A stretch of 47,301 bases of DNA from Alphaproteobacteria bacterium (GTDB lineage Bacteria; Pseudomonadota; Alphaproteobacteria; Caulobacterales; Aquidulcibacteraceae). The stretch lies in the NCBI GenBank assembly GCA_027488965.1, contig JAIYAO010000140.1:1-47301 (forward strand), read 5' to 3'. The notes beneath the pieces are model-generated. The model searched no databases. It had not been told where the DNA came from and saw only the letters and a program-made list of their open reading frames with translations. Shown here piece by piece: positions 1 through 5,862 of the stretch; the stretch's first letter is position 1; the number at the start of each line of letters is the position of its first letter. The position numbers and the translations under genes are program-made.

Positions 1-180
1 CGCGACCGCACCGAGTGCCTGATGCGCCTTCGGCGCGCGCTCGATGAAATGGTGATCACCGGCATCGAGACGACGACGCCGCTCTTCCAGCGCCTCGCCG
101 TACAGCCCGACATCGCCAACGGCGACTACCACATTCACTGGCTCGAACAGCACCTGAAGGGCGAAGCGTCGGACGCATGA
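1..180 (+). CDS. accC: Acetyl-CoA carboxylase biotin carboxylase subunit, 3' end (partial)
   Basis: This is the last 59 codons of a gene that enters from the left edge. The translation contains ALDEMVITGIETTTPL, then a short variable stretch and GDYHIHWLEQHL, which is the characteristic C-terminus of AccC, the ATP-dependent subunit that carboxylates biotin on AccB in the first step of fatty acid synthesis. The stop codon overlaps the start of aat in an ATGA tetranucleotide, so the two genes are probably translationally coupled. accC followed by aat is a common order in alphaproteobacteria. The catalytic part lies outside the window, so its integrity cannot be judged. Confidence 0.9.
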   Translation, partial: RDRTECLMRLRRALDEMVITGIETTTPLFQRLAVQPDIANGDYHIHWLEQHLKGEASDA

Positions 181-830
181 CCCCGAGCATCGGTCCCGAC
201 GACCTGCTCGACTGTTATCGCCGCGGCGTGTTCCCGATGGCCGAGGCGCGCGACAGCGCCCGCCTCTTTCTTGTCGACCCGCAAGAGCGGGGCGTGCTGC
301 CGCTGCGCCCGTTCCGCATCCCACGTCGCCTTGCGCGCACGGTGCGGCACGATCCCTTCCGGGTCACGACGGATGCAGCCTTCGATGGTGTGATGGAGGG
401 CTGCGCCGAAAGCGGTCCGGGGCGTCCGGAAACGTGGATCAACGCGGAGATCCGCGCGCTCTACGGCGCGCTCCACCGGCGCGGCCACGCCCACAGCGTG
501 GAATGCTGGCGCGACGACGCGCTCGTGGGCGGGCTCTACGGCGTCTCTCTTGGCGGCGCGTTCTTCGGGGAGAGCATGTTCTCGCGCGCCACGGACGCCA
601 GCAAGGTGGCGCTCGTGCATCTCGCAGGCCGGCTTGTCGCCGGCGGTTACCTGTTGCTCGATGCGCAGTTCCACAACGCCCATCTCGAGCAGTTCGGCAT
701 CGAGACGATCACGCGCGCGGCGTTCAGGCGGCGGCTGCGCGAAGCGCTCTCAAGAACAGGCGATTTCCACGCCATGGCCGGCGCCGTCAGCGGCGCTCAG
801 CTCCTGCAGTCGATGGCCCACACGTCGTAG
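177..830 (+). CDS. aat: Leucyl/phenylalanyl-tRNA--protein transferase
   Basis: 217 aa cytoplasmic enzyme of the N-degron pathway. It transfers Leu or Phe from aminoacyl-tRNA to the N-terminal Lys or Arg of proteins, marking them for ClpAP via ClpS. Family signatures are visible: DLLDCYRRGVFPMAE near the N-terminus, GGLYGVSLGGAFFGESMFS around residues 118-136, and LLDAQFHNAHLEQFG around 160-175. Length is typical for the short alphaproteobacterial form. The ATG overlaps the accC stop (ATGA). Its last 34 bases overlap head-on with the end of the convergent DUF2155 gene, so the two mRNAs are complementary at their 3' ends. Confidence 0.94.
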   Translation: MTPSIGPDDLLDCYRRGVFPMAEARDSARLFLVDPQERGVLPLRPFRIPRRLARTVRHDPFRVTTDAAFDGVMEGCAESGPGRPETWINAEIRALYGALHRRGHAHSVECWRDDALVGGLYGVSLGGAFFGESMFSRATDASKVALVHLAGRLVAGGYLLLDAQFHNAHLEQFGIETITRAAFRRRLREALSRTGDFHAMAGAVSGAQLLQSMAHTS

Positions 831-1174
831 GTGGGATGCTCCAGCGCGTTGCGGGCGGGATTGGAGGCGAAGATCCAGCCGGACATCAGCGGACGCGTCT
901 CCACCGGATCGCCCTTCGTGCGCGGCACAGGCCGGTCGATGACTTCCAGATAGATCGATACCTCGGGCGTCTCCTCGGGCGCCGCCTTCTGGCAGGCGCG
1001 CACGGTGATCTCCAGGGTGCCGAACTTCACCGGACGGCCTACAGGCGCGGTGAAATCCCGCGCCTGACCGGTGATCTTGTCGAGTCCACGCAGGACAGCG
1101 CCAGGCGCCGCGTGCGCCACGGCGCCAAATCCAAGCCCCGTGATGAGGGCGAGCGCCGCCAGTGTCTTCCTCAA
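797..1174 (-). CDS. DUF2155 domain-containing exported protein
   Basis: 125 aa protein with a Sec signal peptide (residues 1-22, ending AHA) and then a DUF2155 core: a Lys/Arg-poor beta-rich segment with KFGTLEITVRAC, a conserved PLMSGWIFASNPARNALEHPTYDVW stretch, and a C-terminal WAIDC. The two cysteines (in RACQK and AIDC) could form a disulfide. Function is unknown; the family occurs in alphaproteobacteria beside aat and NDUFA12, as here. The start codon is TTG, overlapping the mlaD-like stop as TTGA, with GGAGGG upstream. It is the last gene of a three-gene minus-strand operon. Confidence 0.88.
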   Translation of the reverse strand: MRKTLAALALITGLGFGAVAHAAPGAVLRGLDKITGQARDFTAPVGRPVKFGTLEITVRACQKAAPEETPEVSIYLEVIDRPVPRTKGDPVETRPLMSGWIFASNPARNALEHPTYDVWAIDCRS

Positions 1175-1662
1175 GGCGTACCGCCCTCCGTTGCGCTGGC
1201 GCCGCCCCCGCCGCCCGCCCCGCCGGCGGCGGCCGCGAGCAGCGACAGCAGGTCGATCGATCCCTGCGTGTTGAGGATTTCGCTCCCCGGCGCCAGGACC
1301 GCTTCCGAACCGCCCGCATCGAGCGACACGTATGCGCCGCCCAGCAGGCCGTCAGACGCCACCTTCGCGGACGAATCGTCCGGAAGTTTGACGCTCGGGT
1401 CGATGGTCAGCGTGAGCTTTGCGTAGAACGTCTCCGGATCGAGAGCGACCTTGCTCACCGCGCCCACTTTCACGCCGCTCATGCGCACGTCCGAACCGAC
1501 CGCCACGCCATCGACCCGCTGAAACCGGGCCACGAGTTCATAGCCGCCCGCGGCCTGGCTCGTGCCGGCGCGGGTGACGGCGAACACAAGAAAAACGACC
1601 GCCACGGCGGCCACGATCGCGCCGAGAATGGTCTCGGCCGCCTGTTCCTTGTTCGCGCTCAT
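1171..1662 (-). CDS. mlaD: MlaD/MCE family lipid-transport protein
   Basis: 163 aa. An N-terminal membrane anchor (residues about 11-31, AIVAAVAVVFLVFAVT) is followed by a single MCE domain (about 40-118) with the family features RFQRVDGVAVGSDVRMSGVKVG and DGLLGGAYVSLDAGGS. The C-terminus is a short Leu/Ala/Gly-rich helix (SIDLLSLLAAAAGG). MlaD is the periplasmic substrate-binding hexamer of the Mla ABC phospholipid transporter, which keeps outer-membrane lipid asymmetry. The MlaE and MlaF partners are not in this window. The ATG overlaps the NDUFA12 stop (ATGA). The function is inferred from the family. Confidence 0.88.
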   Translation of the reverse strand: MSANKEQAAETILGAIVAAVAVVFLVFAVTRAGTSQAAGGYELVARFQRVDGVAVGSDVRMSGVKVGAVSKVALDPETFYAKLTLTIDPSVKLPDDSSAKVASDGLLGGAYVSLDAGGSEAVLAPGSEILNTQGSIDLLSLLAAAAGGAGGGGGASATEGGTP

Positions 1663-2051
1663 TCTGGGGTCCATGCCTCGTAGTCGCCGGTGGCTTTGGG
1701 CCGGTCGCCGGTGCGGGCAAGGCTCCCGCGGGGACGATAGGCCATGGGCGTGCCGGTCAGGTTGGGGATGTGGGGCGCCTCCCAGGCCTGCCGCGGCAGG
1801 GGGCCGGTGGTGGGCGGCGCGTCGAAGGTGTGGTGCAGCCAGCCGTGCCAGTCCGGCGGGACCTTCGACGGCTCGGCCAGCCCCTCGTACAGCACCCAGC
1901 GGCGCCTGCGCCCGTCCTGGCTGGGTTTGCGCTCCTCGAAATAGCGATTGTTCTGGTCGTCCCGGCCCACCAGCGCGCCACGGCGCTGGATATCGAACAG
2001 CGCGCCCAGCGTCGCGCCATTCCACCAGGTGAAGAAGCGTAACAGGAACAA
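1659..2051 (-). CDS. NADH:ubiquinone oxidoreductase accessory subunit NDUFA12 family
   Basis: About 130 aa. It has the hallmark segments of the NDUFA12 (B17.2) complex I accessory subunit found in alphaproteobacteria and mitochondria: [15 protein letters not shown] near the N-terminus, then [21 protein letters not shown] and [17 protein letters not shown]. The C-terminal AYRPRGSL...ATGDYEAW is also family-like. No ATG lies near the conserved start; I chose a TTG at 2051 behind GGGGGTCGGAT because homologues begin just before FFTWWNG. An ATG at 2141 would add 30 unlikely residues. It is the first gene of the NDUFA12-mlaD-DUF2155 operon and diverges from the NrdJ-like gene. Confidence 0.88.
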
Positions 2052-2237
2052 ATCCGACCCCCGGCGCCCCCGGTTGGGGCATTTCCGTTGCGCCGCACTA
2101 TGGCGCCCGCGCCCGCGCCGGTCCAGATCGGCGACGCACATCGATGTGGCGCATATTGTTTGTCCACCGAAACGATTATACCAGATGTTGATCCTGTGCC
2201 CGCGTCAGCCTACCCTTGCACCTGTATGGAGGCGAGG

Positions 2238-5015
2238 ATGGCGAAGGCGCTCGGGCACATCGGCTGGTGCACGCGGACTGTGGACGCGTGGGACGGGGAA
2301 CCCGCGCCGGTCGTCGCGCCGGACCATTGGGACGACGCGGCCCTGGCGAAGGCCCTCGCGGACGGCCTTGCCGCCGACGAGGGCCCGGCGCGCAGCATCC
2401 GTGCCGGCATCGCCCAGGTCGCCAGCAGGATCGCCGCCTGGGCCACCGCAGACGACGCCATCGATCAGGAGGACGAGCAGGCACTGGCCGGGCGGCTCGC
2501 GGACCTGATGGCGGCGGGGGCGGTCTGGTTCGACGCCCCGCTCATCTCCACCGCCCTCGGACGGCCAGACGCGCAAGCCTGGTCTGCGTGCGCCATAGCG
2601 TGGCCGGCGGCCGGCCCTGACGAAATGCAGGGGCTAATGGCGGCTCAGCGCGTGCTTGCGTGCGGGGCCGACCTCGCGATCCTCGGTGCGCCGTCCCCGG
2701 ACGCGCTCGATGCGCTGGAAGCCCTTGCCCGGCTCGCCGGCCGTGGCGTGGGCGCCATCTGCATCTCCAGCGACGCGAACGGCCTTGCAGACCGCGCAGC
2801 CGCGCGCGCGCGGCTGGCGGCGGCGGCCCTGAACGGCGCCCGCGCCATCGATGCCGGGCTCGACGCTGTGACCGCCCAGCAGGGCGGCCCTTCCGCCCTG
2901 CGAGAAGCCGCACGCGCACGACGCCAGGGCGCGCTTGACGCCGACATAGCCACCGCGCTGACCGGGGCCTGCGAGACGAGTTATCTGGAGGCCGCCCGCG
3001 ACGATCTCGACCGCCTGAGCCAGACTGTCCGCGTCGTCACCGATTACGACGGCCACGCCGCCGATCCCGAAGGCGCGTGCCTCTTCACCGGCCCGGGCGC
3101 CGCGGTGGCCGCGCGACTCGATGTCCGGGCCTTTCTCCGCGATGGGGCCATCGACGCGGCCGCCCTCGAACAGGCGGCCCGCGATCTGGTCATCGCACTC
3201 GATGCCGCCCACGGCGTAAGCCTTCCCCCATCCGAAGAGATTGCAGCAGGCGCATCTACACGTCGGCAGATCGTTATCCGCATGGTCGGTCTCGCTGGCC
3301 TCCTGATGGCCGCGGGCCTTGCTTACGACAGCGCGGACGGCAGGGCGGCGGCGGGCGCGATCACCGCGCTGATCTCCGGCGCCTCCGTACACGCAAGCGA
3401 CGCGCTCGGAGACCGCCTTGGCGCCGAAGTGAGCGCAGAGCCTCTGCAGTCCGCACGCGAGGCCGCGCGCGCCCTCGGTGGCGCGGGAGCCTTCGCGGAA
3501 ACCGCCGCCCGCGCCCGCACGCTTTGGGAAGAGACCGGCGCGATCAGCGTTCTGCGGCACACCGGCCTCACGGCGCTGGCGCCTGACGATGGCGGCGGAG
3601 GCGGCATCGAGCCGCTGGAAACGGTGGCGCCCTTCGGCGCGCATGGCGATGGCGTGCGTCGCCGTCTCGCAGAGCCTGCGGCGCAGGGCCTGCGCGCACT
3701 TGGCCACACACCCGGCGCCATCCTCTCCATCGCCGCGCACGCCGAAGGCCGGCGGACGCTGGAGTGCGCCCCGCAGATTTCGCTGGAAGCGCTGGCCCGA
3801 AAGGGCTTCCCGGACTCCACCCTGGAGGCCATCGAGGAAGCGGTGCGCGACGGGTTCGGCGTACGCAGCGCCATACACCCGGCCGTCATCGGCGCAGCCG
3901 TGCTGCGCGAAACATTCAGCATGCCGGATGATGTGGCGGCCGGCCGCCGCGGCGATCTGCTGCGCACGCTGGGCTTCACCGATGCCGACATCGCGGCCGC
4001 CGACACGTGGGCGCATGGCGCAGGCTCTCTTGCGGAAGCACCCGACCTTCCGCCCGCACAGCGTGCGATCTTCGCCGACGCCGACCGCATCGACGCCGGC
4101 GCACGCCTCGCCATGGCGGAAGCGGTGGCGCCGTTCGCGCTTGGCGCGCTAGCACTCACCCTTCCGGCCACGGGCGATCGTGCGCAGCTCGCGGCGGCGG
4201 CGCGGCGCCTCGGCGTGACAGGCCTGCGGTTCGCAGCGCCGCCGTCGCCAGCGTTCCTGATCGCCGATGAGCCCGAACCTCCCGTGGAGGCGCCGCCGGC
4301 GCCGACCACTATCGAAGTCATCCGCGAGCGGATCGTAGAGCGCGCGGCGAACGGCCCCGGCGAGCGGCGACGCCTGCCGGACCGGCGCAAAGGCTACATC
4401 CAGAAGTCTGCCATCGGCGGCCACAAGGTCTACCTGCACACGGGTGAGTACGATGACGGCGCCTTGGGCGAGATCTTCATCGACATGCACAAGGAAGGCG
4501 CCGCCTTCCGCTCGCTCATGAACAATTTCGCCATCGCGATCTCCATCGGCCTCCAGTACGGCGTGCCGCTGGAAGAGTTCGTCGACGCCTTCGTCTTCAC
4601 CCGGTTCGAGCCGTCCGGCGAGGTGAAGGGCAACGACAGCATCCGTCACGCCACCTCGATCCTGGACTACGTCTTCCGGGAACTCGCCGTCTCCTACCTG
4701 GAACGTACAGACCTTGCCCACGTGGATCCCTTTGCGGCGCGCGGCGACGGAATCGGGCGTGGGGCGGTGGATGCAGAGGCGGCGGTGCGGCTGATGTCGC
4801 GCGGGTTCGCGCGCCAGGCCCCGGAAAACGTGGTGATGCTGCAGCCGCGCGCGCCGAAGGGCGCGGACGCCCGCGAAGGCGCCGGGCGCGCAAGAATGCC
4901 CGCACCCGCTTACGAAAAGGACCCCTGCCCCGCCTGCGGACACTTCACCGTGGCGCGTGACAAGTTGGGCGCGTTTTCGTGCGCTGCGTGCGGCGTCGAG
5001 GTGAAACACGCCTGA
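2238..5015 (+). CDS. Catalytically decayed NrdJ (B12-dependent ribonucleotide reductase) paralogue with TSCPD domain
   Basis: 925 aa from the ATG at 2238, which has GGAGGCGAGG directly upstream; an in-frame TTG at 2088 is less likely. The C-terminal domain (about 715-840; [60 protein letters not shown]) is a nearly intact NrdJ/TSCPD tail, followed by a CPxC/CxxC zinc ribbon (897-918). The preceding 700 residues follow NrdJ block by block (for example [32 protein letters not shown]) but the active site is gone. NPCSE, which carries the radical cysteine, is DPEGA at 276-280, and its downstream cysteine is missing. The APTGTIG loop is not recognisable; only the first cysteine (C118) may survive. 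A regulatory or structural pseudoenzyme is inferred; a real nrdJ must lie elsewhere. Confidence 0.85.
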
Positions 5016-5157
5016 AGACGCATGCAGGAACTTGGAAGGTGTGGAGTTTTCGCAACAAGCTGCGAATCGAATCTCACTTTCCGCCGAGGAAGACTTCAGG
5101 TTCTACTGCAACTTACGCAGTTTTCACTACGCACGACCGGGCGACAGCGATACGCGC

Positions 5158-5862
5158 ATGATTATGTTCACCCGTGCGCGCACCCTGATTCTTGCGCTTA
5201 TGCTCGCTGCGACCGCGGCGGACGCGGTCGCGCAGGGACTGTTGCCCGGACCATCCATCTCACCTGTGGCGCGAGCGCAGCGGTTCGGCGGCGCCTGCCA
5301 GGACTGCAACCTTTCCCGTCGCACGCTGTCCGGTGTGCGCATCGAGCAGGGCGATTTCACTCGCGCCAGTTTCGTGCGCGCGGTGCTTGAGCGGATGGAC
5401 GGCGCGGGATCGACCTTCACCGAAGCCGACTTCAGTCTCGCCAACATGACCGGGGCGCGCCTCATGGACGCCCGGTGTGACCGCGCGCGGTTTTCGGGCG
5501 CCGTGATGGCGCGGATCGACGCCAGTCGCGCGCAGATGGCGGGCGCCGATTTCGCCAACGCCGAACTGCCGGATGCGGTGCTGGTGCAGACGCGGCTGTC
5601 CGGCGCCTCCTTCGCCGGGGCCAAGGCCATGCGCGCAAACTTCCTGCGCGCCGACCTGCGCAATGCGACGCTTTCCTACGCGCGTCTCGACAACGCCGAT
5701 TTCACCCAGGCCGATCTCCGCGGCGCCACATTCTCCGGCGCAACGCTGACGGGGGCCAACCTCGCCACCGCCCGCCATCTCGCCCAGCCGCAGCTGCGCG
5801 GCGCCTGTGGCGACGAGGCCACCCGCCTGCCCGCGGGCCTGCGCCTGTCGCCCTGCCCCTAG
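5158..5862 (+). CDS. Exported pentapeptide-repeat protein
   Basis: 234 aa. A signal peptide (residues 1-26, ending ADAVAQ) is followed by a CQDCNLSRRTLSG motif and then continuous pentapeptide repeats of the A(D/N)LXX/F type to about residue 215 (for example GADFANAELPDAV, RADLRNATLSYARLDNADF). These form a right-handed quadrilateral beta-helix. Function is unknown; the export signal makes a gyrase-mimic role unlikely. The start is one of two close ATGs (5158, 5164); the open frame extends further upstream but only the shorter form begins with a signal peptide. The 142-base gap before it is comparatively AT-rich and may hold its promoter, but I see no clear -35/-10. Confidence 0.82.
   Translation: MIMFTRARTLILALMLAATAADAVAQGLLPGPSISPVARAQRFGGACQDCNLSRRTLSGVRIEQGDFTRASFVRAVLERMDGAGSTFTEADFSLANMTGARLMDARCDRARFSGAVMARIDASRAQMAGADFANAELPDAVLVQTRLSGASFAGAKAMRANFLRADLRNATLSYARLDNADFTQADLRGATFSGATLTGANLATARHLAQPQLRGACGDEATRLPAGLRLSPCP

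Follow-up and report, generated by a model that had tools for sequence, protein, structure and literature searches.

The window, i.e., the whole 47,301-nucleotide stretch of DNA analysed here, contains near its beginning a block of genes adjoining an open reading frame with detectable homology to the B12-dependent ribonucleotide reductase (RNR) NrdJ. Based on Pfam matches, the block consists of aat, coding for leucyl/phenylalanyl-tRNA-protein transferase (177..830, forward strand; PF03588), a DUF2155 gene (797..1174, reverse; PF09923), an mlaD-type gene whose start is provisional (1171..1650, reverse; PF02470) and an NDUFA12 gene (1659..2141, reverse; PF05071), the last being oriented divergently to the NrdJ-like gene and serving as a marker of the nrdJ locus. 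A matrix scan placed a tandem pair of NrdR-box-like sites at 2146..2193 (forward), at positions -92 and -60 relative to the start codon of the NrdJ-like gene and with a spacing of 32. The gene itself (2238..5015, forward) encodes 925 aa and is open throughout, without frameshift or stop; its ATG at 2238 is preceded by a GGAGG-type site and the frame is regarded as real. A pentapeptide-repeat protein is encoded downstream (5110..5862, forward; PF00805), and, on the same contig, an NrdB-type small chain begins some 5 kb downstream.

The N-terminal third of the protein (residues 1-270; 2238..3047) is shortened by approximately 200 residues relative to NrdJ, and the remainder aligns poorly, with an identity of 0.21 between eroded and catalytic proteins and pLDDT values mostly below 50. 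A remnant of the RNR barrel follows (residues 271-640; 3048..4157), without the radical cysteine, its partner cysteines or an intact PTGT loop, and then a near-invariant TSCPD core (residues 716-836; 4383..4745), recognized by Pfam, identity and dN/dS, and a zinc ribbon of the form C897-x2-C900 ... C915-x2-C918 (4926..4991), which lacks the redox cysteines C3 and C6 of NrdJ; all of these lie on the forward strand. The Pfam match to the barrel was limited to residues 296-395 (E 2.4e-11), and TSCPD (PF12637) was matched at residues 726-817 (E 1.4e-9; 38.6 bits against a gathering cut-off of 22.8). The top NCBIfam model was PRK07562/NF005736 (vitamin B12-dependent RNR), which scored 382.6 bits where the cut-off is 1737; since seven NrdJ-grade matches in the order also fall below this value, the score is by itself not decisive for a functional NrdJ. 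The NrdJ of R. sphaeroides (7b9p) aligned at 4e-25, with DPEGA (residues 276-280; 3063..3077, forward) opposite its NPCSE. The initial annotation had read the whole length as parallel to NrdJ, which was generous in view of the N-terminal third; its reading of DPEGA in place of NPCSE agreed with the alignments to 7b9p and to catalytic NrdJ. Neither the radical cysteine of NPCSE, nor the active-site cysteine pair, nor the full-length score of a functional NrdJ was found in the window protein. Judged by homology and by the gene neighbourhood in common, both of which were detected, the protein is derived from alphaproteobacterial NrdJ, and by its residues it is almost certainly a catalytically dead derivative.

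Loss and retention of residues were compared between 47 eroded orthologues and 35 catalytic NrdJ proteins. The eroded set comprised the window gene, L006, 26 of the 29 loci L086-L114, 18 of the 19 loci L115-L133, and L146; it omits the truncated L087, L112 and L113, L128 (the same gene as L006), L145 (broken frame) and loci from genomes of the class outside the order. The catalytic set comprised 26 of 79 NrdJ-type genome loci and nine of the ten loci L135-L144, with L143 left out as the same gene as L016; L134 was in neither set. The radical cysteine and both partner cysteines were aligned in all of the 35 catalytic proteins and in none of the 47 eroded ones, so that the missing partner cysteine noticed earlier extends to both partner positions. 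Compared with the 35 NrdJ, NPCSE has in the window protein also lost its N and E, and PTGT its T-G-T; the P of PTGT is still there. In the tail, the cysteines assigned to zinc (C1, C2, C4 and C5) were retained in 46/47 eroded proteins versus 35/35 NrdJ, and the redox cysteines C3 and C6 in 0/47 versus 35/35, the stretch being aligned gap-free in f4 and the register of C3/C4 being less sure in other families because of length differences. The single exception for the zinc ligands was L120, a protein that stops before the ribbon. The redox tail of the CRD/NrdJb type is characterized by six cysteines that include the redox pair; of these six, the window protein has four and lacks the redox pair; the zinc ribbon that had been called intact is so only with respect to these four and is not fully canonical.

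The genome of the window (G000; 3.28 Mb, completeness 100, 200 contigs) was searched with the window protein, and the single match was the window protein itself. The PF02867 barrel was found elsewhere in this genome only in the class I NrdA, which consists of all-alpha and barrel domains only and has a C-terminal end with CxxC. No TSCPD was found in the genome outside the window gene, and the one ATP cone was located in a 169-aa NrdR-type frame with a Cys-rich N-terminus, i.e., NrdR is present. As only NrdAB is left and the only ATP cone is in the NrdR-type frame, an NrdAB without ATP cone must do the chemistry. The gene had been interpreted as a paralogue of a catalytic nrdJ to be found elsewhere in the genome; this was rejected, since the search yielded no second NrdJ and the gene is situated at the nrdJ locus itself. 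The gene is therefore the nrdJ orthologue, whose catalysis was lost in situ, in a genome with class I NrdAB.

The position of the gene was shared widely. Of the 47 eroded loci for which 900 bp or more of upstream sequence were available (a count that includes the duplicate L128), 46 had NDUFA12 upstream, always divergent, the sole exception being L117. NDUFA12 was also the neighbour in 29 of the 77 catalytic nrdJ loci whose upstream sequence was long enough and, among the catalytic loci of the order (L135-L144), in three within the fetched stretch; a pentapeptide-repeat gene like that of the window was downstream of the catalytic nrdJ in nine of these ten. The shared neighbourhood points to vertical descent in place, and by comparison the gene is the nrdJ orthologue at its ancestral locus, deprived of the residues for reduction and for re-reduction by the tail. 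The same adjacency, found also in 13 of 14 fetched loci of other families, could suggest a role of the TSCPD domain in iron-sulfur or complex I biology, and the IscU-like fold described in PMC9669993 would be in keeping with this. However, no cysteine occurs among the conserved positions of the TSCPD core, many of the promoters look NrdR-controlled (see below) and the catalytic loci have the NDUFA12 neighbour too; this explanation is considered improbable.

In the family of the window, 56 of 60 genomes had a match, two of them via another RNR only; the eroded gene was matched in 54/60, and one member (G052) had a broken frame. Across the order (n = 298), 57 genomes passed the NrdJ cut-off; Caulobacter crescentus, used as a control genome, gave a TSCPD hit and an NrdJ hit that stayed below the cut-off, and the Caulobacter gene CC1969 is glnA rather than nrdJ. 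When classified by score alone, as read by eye from the best E-values, 65 genomes were NrdJ-grade, about 221 were in the eroded range, 11 had neither and one was unclear (G061, which had no match to the window protein); the 11 genomes with neither, by score, count against the reading preferred below. The 47 eroded sequences fell on one side of a branch with an SH-aLRT of 100 in a quick, unrooted tree search; since their branches are long, attraction may have contributed to that grouping.

NrdA was found in 295 of the 298 genomes of the order. Among 31 carriers of the eroded form searched with PF02867, NrdA was present in 30, and eight also held a further barrel protein (frames of 582-848 aa). 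In the remaining genome, G011, this search detected no barrel besides the eroded gene, which would be expected if the eroded protein reduced ribonucleotides by some novel mechanism that dispenses with the finger-loop cysteine. This is extremely unlikely, since G012 and G013 of the same genus have NrdA, which makes an assembly gap in G011 likelier, and all three catalytic cysteines are lost in 47/47. One ATP cone per genome was counted in 30/30 eroded carriers; the frame that contains it measured 157-228 aa in 29 of them and 427 aa in one. The count covers carriers of the eroded form only and implies no link between the missing cone and the erosion. Catalytic NrdJ and NrdA occur together in most of the f4 and f5 genomes that hold NrdJ.

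Conservation differed strongly between regions. In the TSCPD core, the mean pairwise identity was 0.85 among eroded proteins, 0.80 among NrdJ and 0.78 between the two sets, and the near-canonical state of the C-terminal TSCPD region reported in the initial annotation was thereby confirmed. The corresponding values for the N-terminal part and barrel were 0.34-0.39, 0.64-0.67 and 0.21-0.28; across families, the core was 0.79-0.86 identical and the barrel 0.22-0.29. In eight eroded pairs, dN/dS was 0.000-0.051 in TSCPD and 0.095-0.357 in the N-terminal part and barrel, i.e., there was no equal decay in TSCPD. For the five of six catalytic pairs with finite values, the ranges were 0.034-0.154 and 0.068-0.246, respectively. 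The proposal that selection kept the tail while the barrel drifted holds for the TSCPD core, which is strongly constrained, and for the divergence of the barrel, but the barrel is not drifting freely. For the zinc ribbon, it is less certain: six eroded pairs (29-33 codons) gave dN/dS values between approximately 0 and 0.195, but the pair that includes the window gene gave 0.906 and one further pair 0.688 (about 32 codons), and as the ribbon is near neutral in these two pairs its constraint is unsure. Only four positions over the whole protein were conserved in the eroded set yet rare in NrdJ. Taken by comparison, these values indicate very strong purifying selection on the TSCPD core, together with retention of the four-Cys ribbon.

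A useless relic in slow decay might produce some of the irregularities observed, such as the broken frame of G052, the absence of the ribbon in L120 and the near-neutral ribbon in two pairs. The low dN/dS values contradict this for the TSCPD core, and those of the barrel also argue against it; moreover, the frames are open in nearly all of the listed matches and the promoter is footprinted by alignment, so that decay is a highly improbable explanation. The status of a pseudogene was likewise rejected from dN/dS and conservation. Since TSCPD is kept alike in both sets, the core looks like the same domain with the same job. This job cannot be the re-reduction of the protein's own dead active site, and the presence of the same residues in NrdJ and in the dead proteins indicates that it is independent of any catalysis by the protein itself.

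Structure prediction gave a full-length model with a mean pLDDT of 55.1, good only at about residues 290-395 and 480-630. A fold search with this model returned R. sphaeroides NrdJ 7b9p at the top (E 5.6e-13). A model of the 220-aa tail showed a core order of EEEHHH (three strands, three helices) at low confidence (mean pLDDT 58.8); with this low-confidence model, no useful TSCPD fold match was obtained with Foldseek or VIA-align against the PDB, and no solved relative was found by a profile search for TSCPD.

Betaherpesvirus M45/UL45 are inactive viral R1 homologues and provide an example of an RNR large subunit that has lost catalysis and acquired another role. They are class I and viral, whereas the eroded NrdJ is class II and bacterial, and occurs at its native locus in several families. 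No description of a catalytically dead NrdJ-type protein was found in the open-licence PMC literature, a scope in which subscription papers are mostly not included. With alphaproteobacterial NrdJ (PRK07562/NF005736, 7b9p), the eroded form shares the locus, the TSCPD core, the zinc ligands, the barrel remnant and the descent; it differs in the absence of the active-site cysteines, NPCSE, an intact PTGT and the redox pair of the tail, and the window protein is about 300 residues shorter.

Previous studies of class II RNRs provide some indications of what the TSCPD region could do. The corresponding region is described as IscU-like and oligomerisation has been suggested for it, and section 2.4 of the same paper notes that the IscU-like domain of class II RNRs had no reported role (PMC9669993). 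According to PMC5704485, the tail of Stackebrandtia nassauensis NrdJd drives tetramers and hexamers induced by dATP/dGTP, a further nucleotide site is hinted at, and the tail cysteines are assigned to zinc (C1, C2, C4, C5) and to electron transfer (C3, C6). The CRD of NrdJd resembles the tail of the eroded form in having TSCPD and four Zn-binding cysteines; unlike the eroded form, however, it is situated in an active enzyme with the redox pair. In P. aeruginosa, TSCPD/IscU-like domain and zinc finger are carried apart from the catalytic barrel by a separate protein, NrdJb (PMC5704485, PMC9669993 and PMC4520616), and the contact between NrdJa and NrdJb is tightened by dATP (PMC4520616).

By analogy to NrdJb, the eroded protein could act as a tail that re-reduces another RNR in trans. 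NrdJb serves NrdJa by disulfide exchange, according to the same sources, whereas the redox pair is lost in 47/47 eroded proteins and no NrdJa was found; the NrdA of the window genome ends in a CxxC of its own and the genome contains no short NrdJ. A role as trans electron donor was rejected owing to the absent redox pair, and trans re-reduction in general is very unlikely.

Based on the promoters of the NrdR type, the missing ATP cone and the literature cited, dNTP homeostasis is the likeliest job. The reading preferred here, to which a probability of about 0.4 is assigned, is that the eroded protein may be a non-catalytic module of dNTP homeostasis in which TSCPD would retain the oligomerisation or ligand-binding role it had in NrdJ. 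The TSCPD core would still do its former job, most likely homo-oligomerisation and/or binding of purine deoxynucleotides, and the barrel remnant could serve as a folded platform for it. In this order, in which no ATP cone was found in the class I NrdA/NrdB tested, the protein probably acts in trans on dNTP supply, with NrdAB or NrdR as the target being a guess. Because these TSCPD residues are conserved in NrdJ too, a small ligand or self-assembly would be a better common denominator than NrdAB alone.

Alternatively, the protein could be a dedicated regulator of the overall activity of NrdAB, replacing the ATP cone in trans and inhibiting or assembling NrdAB upon a dATP signal. The presence of NrdA in 295/298 genomes of the order, the single ATP cone in 30/30 carriers and the composition of the window genome's NrdA (barrel and all-alpha domains only) are all compatible with such a function, as is a tandem NrdR-box-like pair of 16.4 bits in front of its nrdA, of which 15.2 bits come from one box. 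However, the TSCPD core is just as conserved in catalytic NrdJ, and this speaks against any target that occurs with NrdAB alone. Moreover, most f4/f5 genomes with a catalytic NrdJ have NrdA as well. Regulation of this dedicated kind is unlikely, though not negligible.

The candidate NrdR-box-like sites upstream of the eroded genes would tie these genes to dNTP supply. As suggested in the initial annotation, the protein may be a regulatory subunit, an inhibitor or a nucleotide sensor. The scanning matrix started from an NrdR-box consensus and was then trained on 56 boxes, all taken from promoters of catalytic nrdJ; no box from this order had passed the seed. Since the training boxes came from catalytic promoters, the recovery of pairs in 61/83 catalytic promoters is partly circular, and that in the eroded set is not. 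At p<0.05, tandem pairs were found in 35/50 eroded promoters, a denominator that keeps the truncated L087 and L112, doubtful starts and the duplicate L128; the spacing was 32-33 in 32 of the 35, and in the window's family (f1) the pairs were mostly near -97/-64. Scores of at least 10 bits were reached by 30/49 eroded promoters and by 0/508 tiles of the window. In an alignment of 24 f1 promoters (that of the window gene plus 23 from the 29 family loci), both boxes were among the conserved islands. The pair in front of the window gene is weak (3.6 bits, p 0.005-0.006), although no window tile scores higher. Among the eroded f4 promoters (eight genes, one present twice), the pair was found in none, and it was found at p<0.05 in 3/10 of the order's catalytic promoters and in 3/10 tested promoters of other families; these four observations weigh against the NrdR/dNTP link.

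A broader possibility, with somewhat less than even odds, is that alphaproteobacterial NrdJ is bifunctional, i.e., its TSCPD has a function of its own independent of reduction, for example as a deoxynucleotide sensor or scaffold, and several lineages dropped the reductase. If this is correct, the second function would have been kept alone down to the TSCPD-only protein of f76. Bacteria with a near-unchanged TSCPD in the absence of catalysis separate the two questions, and the role of the domain becomes testable in them. If TSCPD senses deoxynucleotides, it may help explain the control of class I RNRs without ATP cone in the order. Matches to the model "vitamin B12-dependent ribonucleotide reductase" need not be reductases.

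Other families of the class were also considered. Of 290 genomes drawn across the class, 175 passed the NrdJ cut-off, and of 22 class genomes hand-picked for intermediate scores, 21 matched the window protein. The NDUFA12-adjacent site was altered, with differing end products, in f11, f22, f33, f76, f77, f95, f127 and f134. In f76 (four genomes of 1.2-1.3 Mb, one contig each, GC 27-28%), it carries a frame of 277-280 aa with a TSCPD core 59-73% identical to that of the window, without barrel or zinc ribbon; the missing ribbon of this TSCPD-only protein, like the near-neutral ribbon in two pairs, counts against the preferred reading. The product in f11 has 301 aa with TSCPD and four cysteines but no barrel. 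The occurrence of TSCPD in the absence of a barrel at this locus in f76 and f11 speaks for the preferred reading. A barrel without NPCSE plus TSCPD, without the zinc tail, was found in f127, f33 and f134, the last retaining one partner cysteine; f22 has TSCPD after a sequence without barrel match and f77 has TSCPD with a weak barrel match. In f119, a barrel remnant, TSCPD and four cysteines were found, and NDUFA12 was not found within its 13 kb; the four-Cys tail is thus also present in f11 (L196) and f119 (L198). At the NDUFA12-adjacent locus of f95, a barrel remnant is kept but the TSCPD core is not intact; one of the three genes shows a TSCPD trace of 24 positions (E 3e-4). Dead barrel remnants lacking an intact core were likewise found in f80 and f90; retention of the barrel remnant in these three families runs counter to a reading centred on TSCPD.

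Erosion of NrdJ did not always leave the same part of the protein. The dead barrel remnants in families f90 and f80 (loci L180, L181, L184 and L185) and in genome G541 of family f95 (L205) lacked an intact TSCPD core. They are the product of erosion with the opposite outcome to that of the standalone TSCPD proteins at L192-L195 (genomes G383, G464, G529 and G587), which were found in 277-280-aa frames adjoining the conserved neighbours NDUFA12 and DUF2155. The host genomes of the latter are AT-rich and 1.2-1.3 Mb in size, and their size and GC content suggest SAR11-type bacteria. TSCPD was also missing from a catalytic-type NrdJ of genome G217 (L134/L153, 902-aa frame), in which the NPCSE motif and a six-cysteine tail were kept; no other relative was found when G217 was searched with the window protein.

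An additional barrel protein, in a 582-848-aa frame, was present in eight of the 31 genomes carrying the eroded gene (G013, G028, G029, G031, G045, G060, G105, and G129), with a Cys-rich stretch in that of G045, and one of this type was absent from the window genome. In G011, the eroded gene was the sole RNR barrel found, and the absence of a second one is probably caused by an assembly gap.

Broken or shortened copies of the eroded gene were isolated cases. The reading frame was broken in L145 (G052), one TAG was reported within a match in G133 (L146), and a match in G259 (L120) contained one TAA and had no zinc ribbon.

A pentapeptide-repeat protein (Pfam PF00805) is encoded at window 5110-5862 on the plus strand, and relatives of it within the order were located downstream of nrdJ genes of either type, catalytic as well as eroded.
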